From Eubacteriales bacterium mix99 (GTDB lineage Bacteria; Bacillota; Clostridia; Caldicoprobacterales; DTU083): a DNA stretch of 64,000 nucleotides. The notes below the pieces were generated by a model. That model was not told the origin of the DNA. It saw only the letters and a program-made list of their open reading frames with translations, and did not search any database. The DNA lies in contig CP121690.1 in assembly GCA_038396605.1 (NCBI GenBank), positions 1,210,500 to 1,274,499 of the forward strand, in the 5' to 3' direction. Position numbers and translations under genes: made by a program. Of this stretch, positions 2,704 through 53,504 are shown in pieces. Every line of letters starts with the position of its first letter. Position 1 is the stretch's first letter.

Positions 2704-2807
2704 TTATTTCACCATTCTCTGTCAAAAATCCATATAGAGTACAGTTTCGACCAGGAAGACTTTTTGAGCTTCAATCTATCCCGCCTGGCAGGGAGTCACC
2801 GGAGCAC

Positions 2808-2966
2808 TCAATATTCCGTTTCTGTGTCTGGCTTTTTCTCCAGAAATTTCACAATATGAGTGTCCAGCAGCTGACTGATTTTCAGTATTTCATCTTTGCT
2901 GTCGTTCATTTCTATTGCTTTATTCAGCATGTAACGCAGATTTTCCATGTCTTCTTCGCATTCCAA
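2808..2966 (-). CDS. Spo0E-like aspartyl-phosphate phosphatase (copy 1)
   Basis: This small protein of about 52 residues is of the Spo0E family, which dephosphorylates Spo0A~P or related response regulators and so restrains sporulation. The signature helix ILKISQLLDTHIVKFLEKK matches the family motif, SQ-x-LD followed by a hydrophobic residue. The first helix is ENLRYMLNKAIE. I chose a TTG start at 2966 because GGAGAGG lies 8 nt upstream; an ATG at 2999 would add 11 residues but has no ribosome site. The gene lies about 110 nt downstream of the coiled-coil gene on the same strand and is probably in its operon. An identical copy is at 5677-5835. Confidence 0.8.
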   Translation of the reverse strand: MECEEDMENLRYMLNKAIEMNDSKDEILKISQLLDTHIVKFLEKKPDTETEY

Positions 2967-3078
2967 ATTATTCACCTCTCCAAGTTGTGCTGAAACCATG
3001 GACTCATGCCTGTTTTCGAACTATTTTCGGAAACAACAGCCATCTATTGTTATCTATCCTGCCTTTTTATCTGACCAT

Positions 3079-3528
3079 TTAATGACTTAGTTGGCTTAGC
3101 CTGTCTCCGGATAACTTTTTAATTTCAGCTATCTTGGAATCTTTTTGTTCATCCGTTTGATTTATAAGGTCCAATTGTTCTGATAAATCGGCAACTTCCT
3201 GTGATTTTCTCTGATACTTCTCCTGTAATTTCTGAATTTCCTCGTTTCTTGCCTGAAGATCCACATCTTTGTTCTGCAGATCTTTTTGAAGCTGAGCAAT
3301 ATTATCTTGAAGACTCTTACATTCCGTTTGCTTTTGCGTCAATTGCGCTTCCAACAATTCAGCGTTTTCCTTATATTCGTTTCCCTTTTGGAACAGTCCT
3401 TCAATATTTTGAATTGTTTGCTGTGCATCTGCAAAAAAAGTGGAACCTACAGCAGCATGTACGACAATTCCGCCAAACAATGCACTTACTGCAACTACCG
3501 CCAAAGTAATCAAAATTTTTTTCTTCAT
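3079..3528 (-). CDS. Membrane-anchored/secreted coiled-coil protein (copy 1)
   Basis: The 149-residue protein starts with KKK followed by a hydrophobic stretch (ILITLAVVAVSALFGGIVVHA), a signal peptide or membrane anchor with possible cleavage after VHA. From about residue 35 to the end it is one long coiled coil rich in Gln, Glu and Lys (LLEAQLTQKQTECKSLQDNI, LQEKYQRKSQEVADLSEQLD). The ATG at 3528 is chosen for GGGGG 9 nt upstream; an upstream ATG at 3576 would put non-signal residues in front. I do not recognise a family. It shares a promoter (3565-3593) and probably an operon with the Spo0E-like gene, suggesting a role at the envelope or in signalling to sporulation. An identical copy is at 5948-6397. 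Confidence 0.7.
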   Translation of the reverse strand: MKKKILITLAVVAVSALFGGIVVHAAVGSTFFADAQQTIQNIEGLFQKGNEYKENAELLEAQLTQKQTECKSLQDNIAQLQKDLQNKDVDLQARNEEIQKLQEKYQRKSQEVADLSEQLDLINQTDEQKDSKIAEIKKLSGDRLSQLSH

Positions 3529-3564
3529 TATTATTACCCCCAAATTAATTTTATTCCAGGCATT

Positions 3565-3593
3565 ATTGTAAAACATATTAATGCTAATTGCAA
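3565..3593 (-). promoter_or_regulatory. Promoter of the coiled-coil/Spo0E-like pair (copy 1)
   Basis: On the minus strand, TTGCAA (3588-3593), a 17-nt spacer and TACAAT (3565-3570) lie about 37 nt before the coiled-coil start. Confidence 0.6.
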
Positions 3594-3644
3594 ATTTATT
3601 TTATTGGCAAACAGCACATTCCATTATAACTCATAAATCTCAAG

Positions 3645-5648: not shown

Positions 5649-5676
5649 GAAGCGTGGCAGGGAGTCACCGGAGCAC

Positions 5677-5835
5677 TCAATATTCCGTTTCTGTGTCTGG
5701 CTTTTTCTCCAGAAATTTCACAATATGAGTGTCCAGCAGCTGACTGATTTTCAGTATTTCATCTTTGCTGTCGTTCATTTCTATTGCTTTATTCAGCATG
5801 TAACGCAGATTTTCCATGTCTTCTTCGCATTCCAA
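5677..5835 (-). CDS. Spo0E-like aspartyl-phosphate phosphatase (copy 2)
   Basis: Identical to the gene at 2808-2966, including the SQLLD signature helix and the TTG start behind GGAGAGG. Two identical copies could raise dosage of a negative regulator of a phosphorelay. The downstream side of this copy meets the end of the insertion sequence. Confidence 0.8.
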   Translation of the reverse strand: MECEEDMENLRYMLNKAIEMNDSKDEILKISQLLDTHIVKFLEKKPDTETEY

Positions 5836-5947
5836 ATTATTCACCTCTCCAAGTTGTGCTGAAACCATGGACTCATGCCTGTTTTCGAACTATTTTCGGA
5901 AACAACAGCCATCTATTGTTATCTATCCTGCCTTTTTATCTGACCAT

Positions 5948-6397
5948 TTAATGACTTAGTTGGCTTAGCCTGTCTCCGGATAACTTTTTAATTTCAGCTA
6001 TCTTGGAATCTTTTTGTTCATCCGTTTGATTTATAAGGTCCAATTGTTCTGATAAATCGGCAACTTCCTGTGATTTTCTCTGATACTTCTCCTGTAATTT
6101 CTGAATTTCCTCGTTTCTTGCCTGAAGATCCACATCTTTGTTCTGCAGATCTTTTTGAAGCTGAGCAATATTATCTTGAAGACTCTTACATTCCGTTTGC
6201 TTTTGCGTCAATTGCGCTTCCAACAATTCAGCGTTTTCCTTATATTCGTTTCCCTTTTGGAACAGTCCTTCAATATTTTGAATTGTTTGCTGTGCATCTG
6301 CAAAAAAAGTGGAACCTACAGCAGCATGTACGACAATTCCGCCAAACAATGCACTTACTGCAACTACCGCCAAAGTAATCAAAATTTTTTTCTTCAT
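5948..6397 (-). CDS. Membrane-anchored/secreted coiled-coil protein (copy 2)
   Basis: Identical to 3079-3528: N-terminal signal or anchor helix, then one long coiled coil, ATG behind GGGGG. It is divergent from the XRE regulator that starts at 6539. That spacing of about 140 nt suggests the regulator controls this promoter. Confidence 0.7.
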   Translation of the reverse strand: MKKKILITLAVVAVSALFGGIVVHAAVGSTFFADAQQTIQNIEGLFQKGNEYKENAELLEAQLTQKQTECKSLQDNIAQLQKDLQNKDVDLQARNEEIQKLQEKYQRKSQEVADLSEQLDLINQTDEQKDSKIAEIKKLSGDRLSQLSH

Positions 6398-6433
6398 TAT
6401 TATTACCCCCAAATTAATTTTATTCCAGGCATT

Positions 6434-6462
6434 ATTGTAAAACATATTAATGCTAATTGCAA
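6434..6462 (-). promoter_or_regulatory. Promoter of the coiled-coil/Spo0E-like pair (copy 2)
   Basis: Same TTGCAA-17-TACAAT element as at 3565-3593, on the minus strand. Confidence 0.6.
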
Positions 6463-6538
6463 ATTTATTTTATTGGCAAACAGCACATTCCATTATAACT
6501 CATAAATCGATAAAGTAATTATCTAAGGAGAGGATTTT

Positions 6539-34840: not shown

Positions 34841-34879
34841 TTGGAAAATATTAATAATTTAAAGGAATTCGGCGAGTTG

Positions 34880-34886
34880 TGTCGAA
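34880..34886 (+). promoter_or_regulatory. Candidate Spo0A box upstream of the SpoIID-like gene
   Basis: TGTCGAA is an exact match to the core 0A box, about 58 nt before the start. It sits in an imperfect inverted repeat (GAATTCGGCG...GTCGAAATTC, 34865-34890). A 7-mer match alone is weak evidence; the nature of the downstream gene makes it worth noting. Confidence 0.35.
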
Positions 34887-34943
34887 ATTCTTCAGGATCC
34901 CAATAGGGGTCCCAATTATTATATTGAAAGGTGGTGAAGTTTA

Positions 34944-37502
34944 GTGCGGCGAGTTTTAACAATTATCCTTGTTTTGATAATTGTATTCAGTTTCGTATCG
35001 ATCCGGCCCATATCTGCGACGGATTACAGTTGGATCCGTGTTGCGCTGACCTCCACGGGCACACCGGCATCGATTCCTGTCATTGTTCAGGGCGATTATC
35101 AGATACCGGAGTTCCCATCTATCAGCGTTCAGCAAAAGCAATACACTGTTAGGGCAAAAGGTGGCGGCTTGATTCTGGAGGACGGCAGTAAATCCTGGTC
35201 CCTTGGCTCCCGGTTTACTCTTATGCGCAATACCGGAAGCCTGAACATCAGGAACAGTTCCTACGGATCGCTCAATTATTTGGGCAATATGGAGTTTCGG
35301 ACCGAAGGAAGCGGTATCCGTCTGATCAATCATATTCATTTGGAAACATATCTATATGGCGTTGTGCCTTCTGAAATGCCAAACAGTTGGCCAATTGAGG
35401 CATTGAAAGCCCAGGCGGTGGCTGCCCGCACCTATGCAGTGAAAGGCCTGCGGCCCAGTTCCCAGTATGATCTGGTGGATACCCAGAGCGATCAGGTCTA
35501 TATGGGCTACAATCCAAATAAAAAAAATGCCATTCAGGCAGTGGATGGTACCCGTGGCAAGGGATTGACATATAACGGGAATTTTATATATGCCTTTTAC
35601 TCTTCCAGCAACGGCGGGAAAACAGAGACCTCCAAAAATATCTTCTTACAGGATCTTCCTTATACCGTTATCAAGGATGATCCCTATGATGTGGGAAATC
35701 CCAATAACAAAAATGCAACATGGGAAAAGACCTATGCCAAGTCACCGGTGGACTCCGATTTGTGCAAGCAGGTGAAAAAAAGAATTAAGGACTCCCTGAA
35801 AAGCAGGGGATACAGTACCAATGATTCGGACATCCAAATCAAAAGCATAAAGGAACTGACCATTCATCATAACGACAGCGGTAGGGTGAAGGATGGTCGG
35901 ATCATTGTGACTCTGCAAGCCAAAAATGCAGCCAGTGGAAAGATGGAAAGCATAGAAGAGAAGGTAGCGTTGACGAAATCCAATACACTGGCCATTCTGG
36001 GTTTAAAGAGCCTTCTGTTTGGTGCAACAACGGACGGAAAAGCCTATTATATCCATGGCGGAGGATTTGGTCACGGAGTGGGAATGAGCCAGTACGGAGC
36101 GCAGTATATGGCGCAGCAGGGACACAGCTATCAATCCATTTTGAATTTTTATTATCCCGGTACCAATCTGAAACAGCTTGAGATTGCACCGGAGCCAACG
36201 CCAAAGCCGTTCCCGAGGCCAACGCCGATTCCAGAACCGACGCCGACACCAACACCGACGCCAACACCGACACCAACGCCGACACCAACACCGACGCCAA
36301 CACCGACGCCGACGCCGACTCCGGAACCAACGCCGAAGCCGTTCCCGAAGCCAACGCCGATTCCAAAACCGACGCCGACTCCGGAACCAACGCCGAAGCC
36401 GTTCCCGAGGCCAACGCCGATTCCAAAACCGACGCCGACTCCGGAACCAACGCCGAAGCCGTTCCCGAGGCCAACGCCGATTCCAAAACCGACACCGACT
36501 CCGGAACCAACGCCGAAGCCGTTCCCGAGACCAATACCGATTCCAAAACCGACGCCGACTCCGGAACCAACGCCGAAGCCGTTCCCGAGACCAATACCGA
36601 TTCCAAAACCGACGCCGACTCCGGAACCGACATCAAAGCCGTTCCCGAGGCCAACACCAATTGTAACACCGACACCGGCAACGGAATCGAGCATAACGCC
36701 AACGCCGACACCGACTACGGAGCCAACGCCGACACCGACACCGGAGCCAACGCCGACACCGACTACGGAACCAACGCCGACACCGACACCGGAGCCAACG
36801 CCGACACCGACTACGGAGCCGACTACGGAGCCGACACCGATTACGGAACCAACGCCAACAACGGAATTCATTCCGGCGCCGACGATGGAATCGCTACCGA
36901 TACCGACACCAACCCCGGATCCGGCGCCTGTATACGGCCGGATAAAGGGAGATAAGGAATATAATGTTCGGAGCGGTGCAGGAATACAATATCCAATCAT
37001 GGATTCCCTGGATAGCGATGCGAAGGTGGAAGTGCTGAAACGATCCGGTGAATGGTATCAAATCCGGATGGATAGCCTGGCCGGCTTTATCCCACAGGAT
37101 GGTTTGATTCTGGAAAACTGCACCGGTATTGCGACAGATAGTCTGAATGTGCAAGGCGGCGCAGGAACTCAGTATCCGATCATCGCCTCCCTGGACAGTG
37201 ATACCAGGGTGGAAGTGCTGGAGATTTCCGGCGAATGGTATCGGATCCAAATGGAAAGCCTGACCGGCTTTGTCCGGCAGGACGGTCTTGTTCTGGAACA
37301 GCCGCTGAACCGTACCGGCATTGTAACTGCCGGAATTCTGAATGTGCGGGACGGCGCAGGAGAGAACTTTGATGTAACGGGCAATCTGCCCCAAAACAGC
37401 GAAGTGGAAATCCTGGAGGCCAGGGAAGACTGGTATCGGATTCGATCCGAAGATCTCGAAGGCTATGTGCATCGTGATGATGTGGAAGAAGTGACAGAAT
37501 AA
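34944..37502 (+). CDS. SpoIID/LytB-domain protein with PT-repeat linker and three SH3 domains
   Basis: The 852-residue secreted protein starts with a signal peptide ([21 protein letters not shown]). Residues about 30-415 form a SpoIID/LytB domain, the lytic transglycosylase fold that cuts denuded glycan in engulfment. [21 protein letters not shown] holds the likely catalytic Glu, and [19 protein letters not shown] is the family motif. Residues about 415-660 are a Pro-Thr-rich linker of repeated 20-residue units. Residues 663-852 are three bacterial SH3 (SH3_3) domains that would bind wall peptidoglycan. GTG start at 34944 follows AGGTGGTGAAG. Unlike true SpoIID it has a large wall-binding tail, so it may act in germination or vegetative wall remodelling (LytB-like). 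Confidence 0.9.
36190..36930 (+). repeat. Pro-Thr coding repeats, including 60-bp tandem units
   Basis: Between 36311 and about 36660 lie nearly six tandem units of exactly 60 bp, each coding [20 protein letters not shown] with few changes. They are flanked by shorter 6- to 18-bp PTPTPT repeats. The region is prone to slippage, and unit number may vary between strains. The repeats keep all six frames mostly open. Confidence 0.92.
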
Positions 37503-37541
37503 ATTCACAAAAGGGACAGGGTACCCATACGGTATCCGGAG

Positions 37542-37577
37542 TACAGCCGGGAGTACATTTTCCCGGCTGTATTTTTG
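37542..37577 (+). terminator. Terminator after the SpoIID-like gene
   Basis: TACAGCCGGGA (37542-37552) and TCCCGGCTGTA (37561-37571) form a perfect 11-bp stem with an 8-nt loop, followed by TTTTTG. Confidence 0.85.
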
Positions 37578-37692
37578 TGTCGTTTTCTGATACAATCCAA
37601 CCCAGCATCCGGCACAATAAATGCCATTTTTCAAGAACCGTAAATTGTGGTAGAATGAAAGAGATGTCATGAATAAAAAAGGAGGGGGGACG

Positions 37693-38856
37693 ATGGATTC
37701 AAACAGAATAGCAATCAATGCGTTGATTATGGACAGGGGAAAGGCCGGAATCGGCAATTATGCCTTTCATCTATTACAGGAAATGAATCGGCTTTCCCAT
37801 GGATTGAACATCGATGTTTATATCCAGCAGCAGATGAAGCCTTTTTTCCCATCCAACGATACCATGCACTTTCTGCCCTGCCCGGATTTCAAAAGCTCAG
37901 GGGATCGCATTTGGTATGAGCAATGTCATATGCCCTATGAATATCGGAAGCAGGGATATTCTGTCGTACATTTTCTGGATTACCTGACTCCGCTCCCTTC
38001 CATAGGATCGCAAAAAGTGGTTACCATTCATGATTTGTCCTATTTTGTTTATCCGGAGTTTTTTACAACTGGTAGCCGGCTGTTGAAGCAATTCCTGACC
38101 GGCCCGGGGATTCGCAGTGCGGCCAGGGTGATATGTGTTTCCGGTCATACCGGGAGCGATGTCACAAGGCGATACCACGCAGCGGACAAGGTGAGGGTGA
38201 TCCCGCTGGGCGTGGAGCCGGATCCCGGGAACCCGGAGGGGAACGATGCGGAGACATTGGACCGTTATGGGATTACAGGCGGTTATATCCTTTATACCGG
38301 AACCTTGGAACCCAGGAAGAACATCACAACATTGGTCCGTGCGTTCCGGATCGCCGCGGAAAAAGGGGAGATCCCGCAAAGCTTGGTTTTGTGCGGAAAA
38401 CCGGGCTGGAAGCCGGAGAAAATGGACCGGGAGATCGAAGCTTCCGGCCTGAAGGATCGCATTATCCGAACCGGGTATGTGCCGGACGGAGCATTGCCGG
38501 CATTGTTCCGGCATGCAGACGTCTTTGTCTATCCATCCCTGTATGAAGGATTTGGTCTGCCTCCACTGGAAGCCATGGCACACGGAGTGCCTGTTCTCTG
38601 TTCCAATGCTTCTTCCCTGCCGGAGGTGGTGGGGGATGCCGCCCTGACGTTTTCCCCACGGGACGAAGAGATGCTGTCTTCTCTTCTGATTCGGCTGTTA
38701 AACGAGCCGAAATTGCAGCAGGAATTGATCCGAAAAGGCTATCGCCGTGCTTCCCTGTTTACCTGGGAGAAAACAGCGCAGGCTACCATCGAAGTTTATC
38801 GGGAATTGCTTTCAGAAGAAAAAACAGGAAACAAGGGTTTGGAAGGTGAAAGATGA
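37693..38856 (+). CDS. GT4 family glycosyltransferase
   Basis: The 387-residue GT-B enzyme is the first gene of the surface polysaccharide locus. It has the acceptor-side GIGNYAFHLL, VVTIHDLSY, then YTGTLEPRKNI and the donor-side EGFGLPPLEAMAHGVPVLCS with the GT4 EX7E glutamates. ATG at 37693 is chosen for the strong GGAGGGGGG just before it; an upstream ATG at 37669 would read through that site. The next gene overlaps by 4 nt and is a paralogue. Donor and acceptor cannot be told. No membrane helices. Confidence 0.9.
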   Translation: MDSNRIAINALIMDRGKAGIGNYAFHLLQEMNRLSHGLNIDVYIQQQMKPFFPSNDTMHFLPCPDFKSSGDRIWYEQCHMPYEYRKQGYSVVHFLDYLTPLPSIGSQKVVTIHDLSYFVYPEFFTTGSRLLKQFLTGPGIRSAARVICVSGHTGSDVTRRYHAADKVRVIPLGVEPDPGNPEGNDAETLDRYGITGGYILYTGTLEPRKNITTLVRAFRIAAEKGEIPQSLVLCGKPGWKPEKMDREIEASGLKDRIIRTGYVPDGALPALFRHADVFVYPSLYEGFGLPPLEAMAHGVPVLCSNASSLPEVVGDAALTFSPRDEEMLSSLLIRLLNEPKLQQELIRKGYRRASLFTWEKTAQATIEVYRELLSEEKTGNKGLEGER

Positions 38857-39995
38857 GAGTTGCAGTGGAAATACAACCCATGCTGAGCGACGGCATGACC
38901 GGAGTCGGCTGGTATACGGACAATCTGGTAAGACTCCTGAAGAATTTTGTCCGTCCGGAGGATACTTATTATCTGCTGGGCATGGATTATCATGGCTATT
39001 CCAGCCGGCTGAAGGATTATACTGCTTCCAATGTAGAGCTGCGGATAAATGGGAGAATACATTATGGTATCTATCGGAGATTGGCTAGGTTTTTGCCATT
39101 TCCGGATTATGGCAGTTTTTATCATATTCAGGCAGATCTCTATCATTTTGTGAATTATCAGGTTCCCCGCAAAGTCCGGGGCAGGATTGTGAATACGGTA
39201 TATGATATGGTATATAAAACCTTTCCGGAGACCATGGAAAAGTCCAATTACCGAAAGCTGGAGCGCAATCTGAGTGACTCCTGCAAAAGATCGGATGCCA
39301 TTGTCACCATTTCGGAAAACAGCAAGCGGGAGCTGATGGGCTATCTGGGAATTCCGGAGGAGAAGATCCATATTATTTCTCCCGGAGTGGACCAATCGGT
39401 TTACCGGCCGGTGAGTTCCGGCGACAAAGATAAAATCAGGAGAAAATATGGTCTTCCGGAGAAATATCTGCTGTACCTCGGTACGATTGAGCCACGAAAG
39501 AACATTCCGGTTCTGATTCATGCCTTCCATCAATTTTCCCGGAAGGACCGGCAGGGATACCAGCTGGTGATTGCCGGGAAAAAGGGTTGGATGTTTGAGG
39601 AAGTCTTTGATCTGGCAAAACGTCTGGGGCTGGAGGACCGCATCATCTTTCCGGGTTATGTGGCAGAGGCGGACAAGCCCTGTCTGTATGCCGGTGCGGA
39701 TGTATTCCTGTTCCCGTCCCTGTATGAGGGTTTTGGCATGCCGCCTTTGGAGGCGATGGCGTGCGGTGTTCCGGTGATTACATCGAATACGTCTTCTTTG
39801 CCGGAAGTGGTCGGCGATGCGGGGATTCAAGCCGATCCTGGGGATATCGATGCCATCTGCTCCGCCATGCTGCATCTGACATCCGATCCGGAGGCCCGGG
39901 CGGCCATGAAGGAAAAGGGCCTGCAGAGGGCAAAGGCCTTCTCATGGGAGGATTCGGTAAAAAAATTGCTGAGCGTCTATGAAAAGCTGGAATAA
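38853..39995 (+). CDS. GT4 family glycosyltransferase
   Basis: The 380-residue GT-B enzyme resembles the preceding one ([35 protein letters not shown] with the EX7E pair). The N-terminal [17 protein letters not shown] is the usual glycine loop. Its start overlaps the previous stop as ATGA, showing translational coupling. It probably adds one sugar of the repeating unit; mannosyl or rhamnosyl transfer would fit the nucleotide-sugar genes of the locus. Confidence 0.9.
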
Positions 39996-40089
39996 AGCTC
40001 CCAAAGCCGGTCACAGTGCATAAAGCGGGCAAATTTCGTCAATAAATCAGATAAGAATGGGCGATTCATTTGTAAAGGGGGTAACAAAT

Positions 40090-41205
40090 GTGAAGACGGC
40101 AATCGTGCATGACTGGATTACCAATCCGGGCGGTGCGGAAACGGTGCTTCAGTGTATGCTGGAGCTTTTTCCGGATGCCCCGGTTTATACAGCCGTTTAT
40201 AATCGAAAGAAAATGTCGGGTTATTTTCCGGATACAGAGATTCATACATCTTTTCTTGACCGGATGCCCTTTTCCAATACAAAATATCCCATGTATCTCG
40301 GGTGGATGCCCCGCGCATTTGAACAGTTTGATTTGAGGGGGTATGACCTGGTCCTTTCCTCCTCCACAAGCTGTGCAAAAGGGGTACTGACAGACGCCGG
40401 TACGCTGCATGTCTGCTACTGCAACACCCCGATGCGCTATGCATGGGATTTCTATTTTGATTATCTGGATCAAAGTTCCAATCCGGTGAGACAGCATGTG
40501 GTCCGCAGGCTGATGCACCGGATCCGGATATGGGATGTTCTGTCCTCCAACCGGGTGGATTATTTCATAGCAAATTCCCATAATGTGGCAGCCCGGATCG
40601 AAAAGCATTATCGCAGGGAATCAACGGTTATTTATCCGCCGGTATCCCTGACGGATGTTGACCTTAAGGACTGTGAACCGGGTATGTACTATCTGGTGGT
40701 CTCCCGGCTCGTTCCCTACAAGCGGATCGATCTGGCCGTGGAAGCCTTTCGCTCGCTGCATCTTCCGCTGATTGTTGCGGGGGACGGTTCGGAATGCAAG
40801 GCATTAAAAAAAGCAGCGGGGCCTGATACCCGGTTTGTCGGAAGGGTGCCGGAAGCTCAGAAGGATGATCTGTTCCGGCATTGCAGGGGATTTATCTTCC
40901 CCGGGGAGGAAGATTTCGGGATTACCCCAGTGGAGGCGCAGGGGTATGGAAAGCCGGTCATTGCCTTTGGAAAGGGCGGTGCCCTGGAAACCGTGATCGA
41001 TGGGAAAACGGGAATCCATTTTGATGAGCAGACGCCGGACTCCCTGGCAGAAGCAGTGCAGAGGGCTGAACAGACCCATTTTGATCCGCAGGAAATCCGG
41101 GAAAACGCCCGGACATTTGATCGGTCCGTCTTCCGGGACCGGCTTTGTTCCTTTCTCCAGGAAAAGATGCAGGAGTTCCAGGGTCAGAAAGGGGTGAAAT
41201 GGTGA
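40090..41205 (+). CDS. GT4 family glycosyltransferase (WbaZ/mannosyltransferase-like)
   Basis: The 371-residue protein starts AIVHDWITNPGGAETVLQ, typical of WbaZ-like mannosyltransferases. CYCNTPMRYAWDFYFDYL, VVSRLVPYKRIDLAVEAF and FPGEEDFGITPVEAQGYGKP are family blocks. The last is the EDFG-x6-E form of the donor motif. GTG at 40090 has AAAGGGGG 7 nt upstream; an ATG at 40057 lies in front of that site. It belongs to the same transcription unit, after a 94-nt gap. Confidence 0.9.
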   Translation: MKTAIVHDWITNPGGAETVLQCMLELFPDAPVYTAVYNRKKMSGYFPDTEIHTSFLDRMPFSNTKYPMYLGWMPRAFEQFDLRGYDLVLSSSTSCAKGVLTDAGTLHVCYCNTPMRYAWDFYFDYLDQSSNPVRQHVVRRLMHRIRIWDVLSSNRVDYFIANSHNVAARIEKHYRRESTVIYPPVSLTDVDLKDCEPGMYYLVVSRLVPYKRIDLAVEAFRSLHLPLIVAGDGSECKALKKAAGPDTRFVGRVPEAQKDDLFRHCRGFIFPGEEDFGITPVEAQGYGKPVIAFGKGGALETVIDGKTGIHFDEQTPDSLAEAVQRAEQTHFDPQEIRENARTFDRSVFRDRLCSFLQEKMQEFQGQKGVKW

Positions 41206-41209
41206 GATT

Positions 41210-42619
41210 ATGGTAGAGAAAGGCTATACACCGCTTAAAAAAATTACGATTGCCATGGATGTTCTGCTGACCCTGTTGTCCTTTTTACTGGCTTATGAAC
41301 TTCGGGATAATATCATTTTTGACCGTCATGGCCATTTGTTCAGCCTGCAGCAGTATCTGTGGGTTTTGTGGATCATTATTCCGGTCTGGCCAATCGTCCT
41401 GAAATATTTCGGACTGTACGAGGGGGTATTGACGGGATCGATGAGGGATATGATTCTGGCCATTCTCAAGTCGGTCCTGACCGCTTCCCTGGTTCTGGCT
41501 TCCGCAATTTACGTGATGAAGGACAGTCTGTTCAGCCGGTTGTTCTTTGGTTTTTTTATCAGCATCAATTTCGTCCTGCTGTTGATTGAAAAAATTATAT
41601 TGAAATGGGTGTATCACCGGCCGCACAGTAAATACAATGATCGGAAGGTAATGCTGATTTCCGCGCCGGAAGGAGTTTTCAAGTTTACCAACCTGATGTC
41701 CCGTGAGGAGGATATCAGTGTCAATGTCATCGGTTATCTGACCGTGGATGACAGCCGGAATACCGTGGACGGAGTGGAATGCCTCGGCAGAATGGAGGAC
41801 ATGAAGCGGATCCTGCTGTCCAATGCGGTGGATGAGGTGATTTTTGTATTGCCCAAGTCCTATGTCCCGGAAATTGAAGGCTACATCATGGACTGTGAGG
41901 AAATGGGCATTACGGTCCGGATGCTTCTGGATTTCTATCATCTGAAACTGTCAAAAACCCTGATCAGTTATCTGGGTAACCTTCCCATGCTGTCCTTTCG
42001 CACGGTAAACCTGGATGAAAATCAGAAGTTTATTAAACGTATTGTGGATATTGTGGGCGCCATTGTGGGGCTTGCGGTCACAGCGGTTCTCTTTCTTATT
42101 TTCGGGCCGGCCATTAAACTGGAATCCCGGGGACCCGTTTTCTATTCCCAGATGCGGGTTGGTCAAAACGGCAGGAAGTTTCGCCTCTATAAATTCCGGA
42201 CCATGTATGCTGATGCCGATGAACACAAGAAGGAGCTGGAAGATCAAAACATCATGAAAGGTGCCATCTTCAAGGTGGAAAATGATCCGCGGATCACCCG
42301 GGTGGGCAAAATCATGCGGAAGTTCAGCCTGGACGAATTTCCACAGTTCTACAATGTCATGAAAGGGGAGATGAGCCTGGTGGGCACCCGCCCGCCGACA
42401 GAGGATGAGGTGGCGGGATACGAACAACGCCATCGCAGAAGACTCAGCATCAAGCCCGGAATTACCGGCCTCTGGCAGGTCAGCGGGAGGAACGCGATTG
42501 AGGATTTTGACGAAATCGTCGCCCTGGATGTGAAATATATTGACAGCTGGTCCCTGTGGCTGGATATCCGGATCCTGTGCAAAACGGTACTGGCTGTGTT
42601 CCGCAGCACCGGAATGTGA
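41210..42619 (+). CDS. Priming phosphoglycosyltransferase (WbaP/CpsE-type)
   Basis: The 469-residue polyprenyl phosphoglycosyltransferase starts glycan assembly by moving a sugar phosphate from UDP-sugar to undecaprenyl phosphate. Residues 1-130 hold four membrane helices, about 145-260 a Rossmann-like CoA-binding fold (MLISAPEGVFKFTNLM), and from about 270 a re-entrant helix and the catalytic domain. The catalytic part has FRLYKFRTMYADADEHKKEL, FSLDEFPQFYNVMKGEMSLV, GTRPPTEDE and GITGLWQVSGRN. UDP-glucose or UDP-galactose is usual for the family. ATG at 41210, 5 nt after the previous stop. Confidence 0.94.
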   Translation: MVEKGYTPLKKITIAMDVLLTLLSFLLAYELRDNIIFDRHGHLFSLQQYLWVLWIIIPVWPIVLKYFGLYEGVLTGSMRDMILAILKSVLTASLVLASAIYVMKDSLFSRLFFGFFISINFVLLLIEKIILKWVYHRPHSKYNDRKVMLISAPEGVFKFTNLMSREEDISVNVIGYLTVDDSRNTVDGVECLGRMEDMKRILLSNAVDEVIFVLPKSYVPEIEGYIMDCEEMGITVRMLLDFYHLKLSKTLISYLGNLPMLSFRTVNLDENQKFIKRIVDIVGAIVGLAVTAVLFLIFGPAIKLESRGPVFYSQMRVGQNGRKFRLYKFRTMYADADEHKKELEDQNIMKGAIFKVENDPRITRVGKIMRKFSLDEFPQFYNVMKGEMSLVGTRPPTEDEVAGYEQRHRRRLSIKPGITGLWQVSGRNAIEDFDEIVALDVKYIDSWSLWLDIRILCKTVLAVFRSTGM

Positions 42620-52643: not shown

Positions 52644-53504
52644 ATGGAAACCATATTGATCACAGGGGCAAAGGGACAACTGGGACATGCGCTGATGCGG
52701 TATGCCGGCAAGGATTCGTCGATGCGGTTTATACCGGTTGATCTTGCGGATGCAGATATTACCGTGCTGGACGAGGTGATTCGTCTGGTGCGTGAGGCAA
52801 AGCCGGATATCCTCATCAATTGTGCGGCCTATACGGCGGTGGATCAGGCCGAATCTGATGCAGACCGGGCCTTCCTGGTCAATGCGGTGGGTCCGAAAAA
52901 TCTGTCCATTGCAAGTTTTGATCTTGGGATTCCCATGGTACAGATCTCCACGGATTATGTTTTCGACGGCAGCGGGGCGAAGGACAGGGACGGGAGATTG
53001 CGGCCCTATCGGGAATCGGATCCCATTTCGCCGCAGACCGTTTATGGCCGGACCAAACGCCTGGGAGAACTCATGACCATGCAGCACAATCCCCGGCATT
53101 ACATTATCCGGACCGCATGGCTGTATGGAGAAGGACATAATTTTGTACGGACCATGCTTCGTCTGGCTTCCGGGAAGGATCCCGTACGGGTGGTGGACGA
53201 TCAGACAGGGAGCCCGACCAGTGCGGATGAGCTGGCAAAGGCAATTCTTGCGCTGATCCGGACCGGACAATATGGACTGTACCACGGCACCTGTGAGGGA
53301 GCCTGCACCTGGTATGATTTCACAAAGGAAATCTACCGGCTGAAAGGGATCCGGAAAGAGGTCCTTCCCATATCCACGGAGGATTACCCCACGCCGGCCA
53401 GACGGCCCGCGTATTCCGTGCTGGAGAATTATCTGCTGGATCAGACAACGAAAATCCGTTTTGCCTCCTGGCAGGATGCCATACGAAATTACTTATGCGA
53501 TTAG
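52644..53504 (+). CDS. rfbD: dTDP-4-dehydrorhamnose reductase
   Basis: The 286-residue extended short-chain dehydrogenase has the NAD(P) motif ITGAKGQLGHAL near the start, NCAAYTAVDQAESD, ISTDYVFDG and YGRTKRLGE (catalytic Tyr and Lys). It makes the last step, giving dTDP-L-rhamnose. First of the four dTDP-rhamnose genes in the order D-A-C-B, which is not the common A-C-B-D or B-D-A-C. Confidence 0.95.
   Translation: METILITGAKGQLGHALMRYAGKDSSMRFIPVDLADADITVLDEVIRLVREAKPDILINCAAYTAVDQAESDADRAFLVNAVGPKNLSIASFDLGIPMVQISTDYVFDGSGAKDRDGRLRPYRESDPISPQTVYGRTKRLGELMTMQHNPRHYIIRTAWLYGEGHNFVRTMLRLASGKDPVRVVDDQTGSPTSADELAKAILALIRTGQYGLYHGTCEGACTWYDFTKEIYRLKGIRKEVLPISTEDYPTPARRPAYSVLENYLLDQTTKIRFASWQDAIRNYLCD

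Follow-up and report, generated by a model that had tools for sequence, protein, structure and literature searches.

A gene in the window, i.e., the 64,000-nucleotide stretch of DNA that was analyzed (G000:C1:1210500-1274499, from a genome consisting of a single 3.13-Mb contig), probably codes for a peptidoglycan enzyme of the SpoIID/LytB type that is secreted and bound to the wall, and is probably transcribed by sigma-H RNA polymerase as growth ceases or as the cell enters sporulation; we assign this reading a probability of roughly 0.6. The computed parts of this explanation are the SpoIID fold with its catalytic glutamate, three SH3 domains, the neighboring ricT gene and a conserved sigma-H-type promoter. 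These results are compatible with a link of the gene to sporulation, although expression upon entry into stationary phase is the safer statement. The vague lead of a “0A box”, with which the earlier note on this DNA had started, is thereby turned into a testable claim, namely that the sigma-H regulon of many relatives includes a wall enzyme of the SpoIID type that is not part of the engulfment complex. The open-access literature on SpoIID in connection with SH3 domains or sigma-H yielded nothing that could be tied to this gene, suggesting that the conserved sigma-H promoter of the ricT-linked group and the long stalk are probably undescribed. The architecture as such is not new, since SpoIID/LytB-domain proteins with SH3-like tails occur beyond this order as well (e.g., L073, L074; found with a rough pattern).

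Domain architecture and stalk

The open reading frame reported in the earlier note was confirmed and starts with a GTG codon (Table 1). Its proposed composition of a SpoIID-type head, a Pro/Thr-rich stalk and three SH3 domains is borne out by profile matches. The Pfam model SpoIID (PF08486) covers residues 123–210 with 100.7 bits (cut-off 23), the SpoIID_LytB model TIGR02669 reaches 246.5 bits versus a cut-off of 83.3, placing the protein among the SpoIID/LytB-domain proteins, and SH3_3 matches three stretches with 107 bits (gathering score 27). Several relatives carry clearer signal sites of the AYA-A type than the window protein.

Table 1. Window coordinates of the gene, its predicted promoter and its domains.
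Feature	Position	Strand	Basis or remark
-35 element AGGAATT, predicted sigma-H promoter	34863..34869	+	AGGA invariant in 22 distinct promoters
-10 element GAAA, predicted sigma-H promoter	34884..34887	+	overlapped by TGTCGAA (34880-34886)
SpoIID/LytB – PT stalk – 3x SH3 gene (852 aa)	34944..37502	+	open reading frame and profile matches
Predicted secretion signal (~residues 1-25)	34944..35018	+	by reading the sequence only
SpoIID/LytB head (residues 31-410)	35034..36173	+	AlphaFold model, structure alignment
Glu144 codon, equivalent of catalytic Glu101 of C. difficile SpoIID	35373..35375	+	phmmer alignment
Pro/Thr-rich stalk, seven 60-bp (20-residue) units	36189..36933	+	TRF, unit comparison
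SH3_3 domain 1 (~residues 669-722), limits approximate	36948..37109	+	profile match
SH3_3 domain 2 (~residues 729-784), limits approximate	37128..37295	+	profile match
SH3_3 domain 3 (~residues 796-848), limits approximate	37329..37487	+	profile match
Intrinsic-terminator-like hairpin and T run	37541..37578	+	stem in fold of 37500-37600; T run by reading

Modeled with AlphaFold (pLDDT 96.8, pTM 0.92), the head superimposes on C. difficile SpoIID (5i1t) with a Z score of 26.6 and 2.4 Å over 256 residues (Foldseek E-value 1.8e-19) and on the SpoIID structure 4rwr with a Z score of 20.2. Part of the head also aligns with SleC, a germination lytic transglycosylase of C. difficile (9h68; Z 13.7, 147 residues, 2.5 Å), although this structural match is weaker than that to SpoIID. 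NAD-kinase structures matching model residues 1–93 (Z of about 6) were discarded as reflecting a common arrangement and not kinship. The catalytic glutamate, on which the earlier note had made its reading depend, is present: Glu144 is the counterpart of Glu101 in C. difficile SpoIID (phmmer alignment with 5txu and related chains), the exchange of which to alanine abolishes activity according to PMC6221140. In two alignments, both including the window protein, Glu144 is invariant in 17 close heads and in 38 diverse heads, and across the latter the GHGxGxSQ motif is kept with G-H-G-G-Q invariant and the serine nearly invariant.

An identity as the engulfment protein SpoIID was rejected. The window protein reaches 161 bits with the SpoIID equivalog model TIGR02870, below its cut-off of 234.75, and a separate true spoIID is encoded elsewhere in the same genome (L067, at 1315115; 350.2 bits), in which PF08486 is over its cut-off at six places. 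This true SpoIID has a length of 359 aa, so that the earlier statement on the missing tail of true SpoIID is correct for this genome. Head fold and catalytic glutamate are common to the window protein and the SpoIID structures (5i1t, 5txu, 4rwr), whereas the signal-like N-terminus, the PT stalk, the SH3 domains and the sigma-H-type promoter of the gene set it apart from SpoIID. The zinc ligands differ as well: at the columns aligned with Cys140 and His145 of C. difficile SpoIID the window protein has neither Cys nor His, its sole cysteines being residues 274 and 726. In B. anthracis SpoIID, too, the corresponding stretch is devoid of Cys and His, and the true SpoIID of the window genome carries a Cys/His cluster at the zinc-ligand position.

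For the linker between head and SH3 domains, a length of about 245 residues with 60-bp tandem units had been noted before. It was found to comprise 250 residues, 70% of which are Pro or Thr, and seven units of 60 bp, the first at 36189 and the other six following one another from 36321. TRF reports a 60-bp period with 7.9 copies and 83% matches at 36189-36677, next to arrays with periods of 48, 24 and 12 bp. The complete linkers in relatives span 30–120 residues, as read in 18 of the 22 ricT-linked orthologues described below; in the other four the linker is interrupted by N runs (L039, L044) or by a contig end (L051, L052). The stalk of the window protein is exceptionally long compared to these relatives, and the variable stalk length suggested earlier is found between species, the complete linkers ranging from 30 to 250 residues. 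In G001, the only congener searched, the stalk is interrupted by two N runs (307 and 202) of untrustworthy length.

It is a serious possibility that repeat slippage generated the long stalk neutrally and that a linker of any kind would suffice. Within the run of six units, neighbors among the first five (36321-36620) differ by 1, 1, 4 and 0 bases, two of these units being identical, and the sixth differs by 13 bases. The differences of 0–4 bases suggest recent duplication, and the orthologues manage with linkers of less than half the length. However, the reading frame and a near-strict alternation of prolines are maintained through the units, which argues against mere slippage. The alternating prolines may form an extended rod that would allow the head to reach across the wall. 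An extended rod rises by 0.31 nm per residue, giving about 75 nm for a fully extended stalk.

A predicted sigma-H promoter

The motif AGGAWWW-N14-GAAW precedes all 23 ricT-linked copies of the gene, i.e., those of the window, of G001, a copy identical to that of the window, and of 21 others. Its GAA begins 39–82 nt before the start codons, which were chosen in the orthologues by matching the N-terminus of the window protein. In dinucleotide shuffles (300 rounds) a mean of 0.11 and a maximum of 2 of the 23 copies had a match; the motif had first been spotted in these same upstream regions and the subsequent checks therefore weigh more. With other spacings on the same strand, N10–N13 and N15–N17 occur in no copy and N18 in two. 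The 21 relative loci contain 21 matches at the place of the promoter versus five elsewhere in 494,926 bases, both strands counted. Among the 22 distinct promoters GAA is as invariant as AGGA, its preceding base is C in 20 and its following base is T in 17 and A in five. The predicted 5′ leader contains a 7-bp hairpin (GGATCCC/GGGGTCC, window 34895-34912) ahead of the ribosome-binding site.

Two independent checks were applied to the motif, a C. difficile SigH matrix and a genome-wide count of its CGAAT form. The matrix, built from 29 of the 40 published rows, picked for both boxes being visible, ranks the window site first in the 64 kb with 23.1 bits, whereas the second-best distinct site reaches 15.3 bits. 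The genome encodes sigH itself (379.6 bits versus a cut-off of 294.8). For the CGAAT form, 20 genomic sites compare to none in a reversed control, and 10 reading frames downstream of these 20 sites were scanned with NCBIfam models. The genes identified behind these sites include spo0A, dnaG, hpf and secA, all over the cut-offs, and furthermore HU-like, comEA-like and NlpC/P60-like genes with weaker or partial matches. In B. subtilis, dnaG and yvyD/hpf are sigma-H genes. In C. difficile, spo0A is a target of SigH (PMC7438776). Several CGAAT sites are not followed by a convincing gene start, suggesting that some of them are probably due to chance. The CGAAA form, which the window carries, is not enriched genome-wide (12 versus 9 in the control). 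An NlpC/P60-like wall hydrolase (L171:387-1862, near 2251057 in the genome), which scores below the cut-offs of the models matched, is preceded, at a distance of 203 nt from its start, by a sigma-H-type motif and is possibly a second wall enzyme of the sigma-H regulon.

The C. difficile SigH promoters resemble the window site in their AGG-type -35 element, the spacing of 14–15 nt and the GAAT or GAAA of the -10 element (PMC7438776 Table 3): 30 of the 32 rows tested, out of 40 published, fit an AGG-type element, 14 or 15 nt and GAAN, and nine of these 30 end in GAAA. They differ in that no SpoIID-type gene is named in Table 3, the word “SpoIID” being absent from the main text of that paper. Outside the ricT-linked group the motif was found before 2 of 43 more distant SpoIID/LytB loci (37 of the 80 loci gave no open reading frame under the pattern used), before none of the four relative loci without ricT linkage and before one of four class-level matches with short loci (G043).

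The ricT-linked group and its neighborhood

A search with the head in 61 genomes, including the window’s own, at E ≤ 1e-30 resulted in 33 matches in 32 genomes. Out of the 32 matches in relatives 26 were read at length, the six omitted being class-level rows (G043, G045, G032, G034, G050, G049). In 22 of these 26 loci ricT, a gene of the PSP1 family, lies just upstream, i.e., the gene is a conserved neighbor of ricT. ricT is usually preceded by holB and a cyclic-di-AMP receptor gene, and the window and G001 have a LacI-type regulator gene and a ferredoxin gene between ricT and the SpoIID/SH3 gene. Orthologues with readable SH3 domains carry one to six of them after the head, some of these counts being cut by contig ends. 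In three loci (L045, L048 and L052 from G004, G010 and G007) an SH3 domain is inserted within the SpoIID head, and the tails in L040 and L042 (G011, G005) contain peptidoglycan-binding-like repeats besides SH3 domains, as judged visually and with a rough pattern.

Each of the 22 relatives that carry the ricT-linked gene has Spo0A, but it is also present in 55 of the 61 genomes overall, with or without the gene, so that this co-occurrence says little. A spoIID over the TIGR02870 cut-off is found in 20 of the 22 relatives. G020 and G028, the two sampled species of genus g16 with genomes that are 83 and 85% complete, have no TIGR02870 match over the cut-off and keep the ricT-linked gene together with Spo0A, which suggests that it may not be a sporulation gene. 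These two genomes favor a general role in wall turnover or in surface polysaccharides that is unrelated to sporulation, a reading which we regard as rather unlikely. It would also fit the position of the gene just before glycosyltransferase and sugar-transferase genes, and SigH serves many non-sporulation genes as well (PMC7438776). However, the gene is separated from the glycosyltransferase block by its own promoter and by the terminator-like hairpin, the latter suggesting a single-gene transcript. Moreover, in the 17 linked loci with sequence beyond the gene (flanks of about 1.4–7 kb), matches to the window reading frames located there are found only in G001 and G011.

The downstream genes of the window comprise glycosyltransferases, a sugar transferase and RmlD (37669-42616 and 52644-53504), and relatives of the reading frames at 52.6–56.0 kb adjoin a SpoIID-family gene in L040 and L064. 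The identity of the window to G001 forms a mosaic: it amounts to 100% at 12.6–18.9 kb, 97% at 19.0–19.5 kb, 90% at 21.7–27.7 kb, 93–94% at 27.7–32.4 kb and about 100% between a point inside ricT (near 32.75 kb) and 43.35 kb as well as, in pieces on several contigs, at 44.0–63.9 kb. Either recent recombination or a chimeric draft genome would account for this mosaic, the SpoIID gene being in the part with 100% identity. An 857-bp direct repeat (99.9% identical; window 2783-3639 and 5652-6508) is located between two rRNA operons.

Proposed activity and the TGTCGAA element

The fold, the catalytic glutamate and the SH3 domains speak for a lytic enzyme or an amidase partner tethered to the wall, as suggested earlier; the germination role proposed alongside has no direct support, and no germination gene was found among the 10 window proteins scanned. 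By analogy to SpoIID, the head would cut MurNAc-GlcNAc bonds of peptide-stripped glycan, probably after the action of an amidase, and the SH3 domains may hold the enzyme in the wall, as judged from their family. The enzyme would be active in the whole cell or in the predivisional sporangium, before and apart from the mother-cell SpoIID.

A LytB-type head might not cleave glycan as SpoIID does. LytB of B. subtilis is encoded in a lytABC-type operon. The window protein shares the TIGR02669 domain and the predicted secretion with LytB, but it has a stalk and an SH3 tail and its gene stands alone with its own promoter. LytB is described as an enhancer of the LytC amidase in PMC7176660, and the head of the window protein might similarly be an enhancer of a separate amidase instead of a transglycosylase. 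This is consistent with the protein passing the SpoIID/LytB domain model and not the SpoIID equivalog model and with the absence of the SpoIID zinc ligands. We nevertheless consider it unlikely, as the catalytic glutamate and the GHGxGxSQ motif are maintained through the 38 diverse heads and as no amidase was found among the 10 window proteins scanned.

More speculatively, and with the odds well against it, the gene might represent a ricT-linked, sigma-H-dependent SpoIID paralogue present in several families of one order, which acts on the wall or septum of the whole sporangium before engulfment as a wall-anchored counterpart of the mother-cell SpoIID. In this lineage the polyproline rod might then have become at least as long as a Gram-positive wall is thick, which would allow the enzyme to be anchored at one face and to cut at the other.

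The 0A box has the consensus TGNCGAA. The upstream 0A-box match reported in the earlier note exists as an exact TGTCGAA, 57 nt before the start codon. As evidence for a 0A box the heptamer alone was rejected, being rarer in the window than expected by chance (3 versus 7.5 occurrences). The third base of the would-be box varies in the 22 promoters (G in 10, T in seven, C in four, A in one) in contrast to the invariant AGGA and GAA, and GTGTCGAAT is likewise the reading of the SigH promoter of C. difficile spo0A (PMC7438776 Table 3); TGTCGAA is therefore best read as the -10 region of the sigma-H promoter, which needs part of the box anyway. Similarly, the imperfect palindrome noted at this site is present, but its arms are short and it largely coincides with the -35/-10 pair. 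The proposed link to sporulation or the transition phase is thus supported through the sigma-H promoter rather than through a Spo0A box. Direct control by Spo0A via TGTCGAA, alone or together with sigma-H, appears improbable on these grounds, even though a TTYGNCA half-site overlaps the -35 element, making up a dyad together with the right-hand box, in 11 of the 22 promoters (by eye), the window being without this left half-site, and even though the genome encodes two full-length Spo0A paralogues. These are 53% identical and located at G000:C1:1295462 (L065:3016-3795) and at 2502686 (L173). At least two Spo0A_C matches were obtained for 27 of the 30 genomes that were searched within the order, the window’s own included, and in seven relatives one Spo0A copy is on the same contig as the ricT-linked gene.
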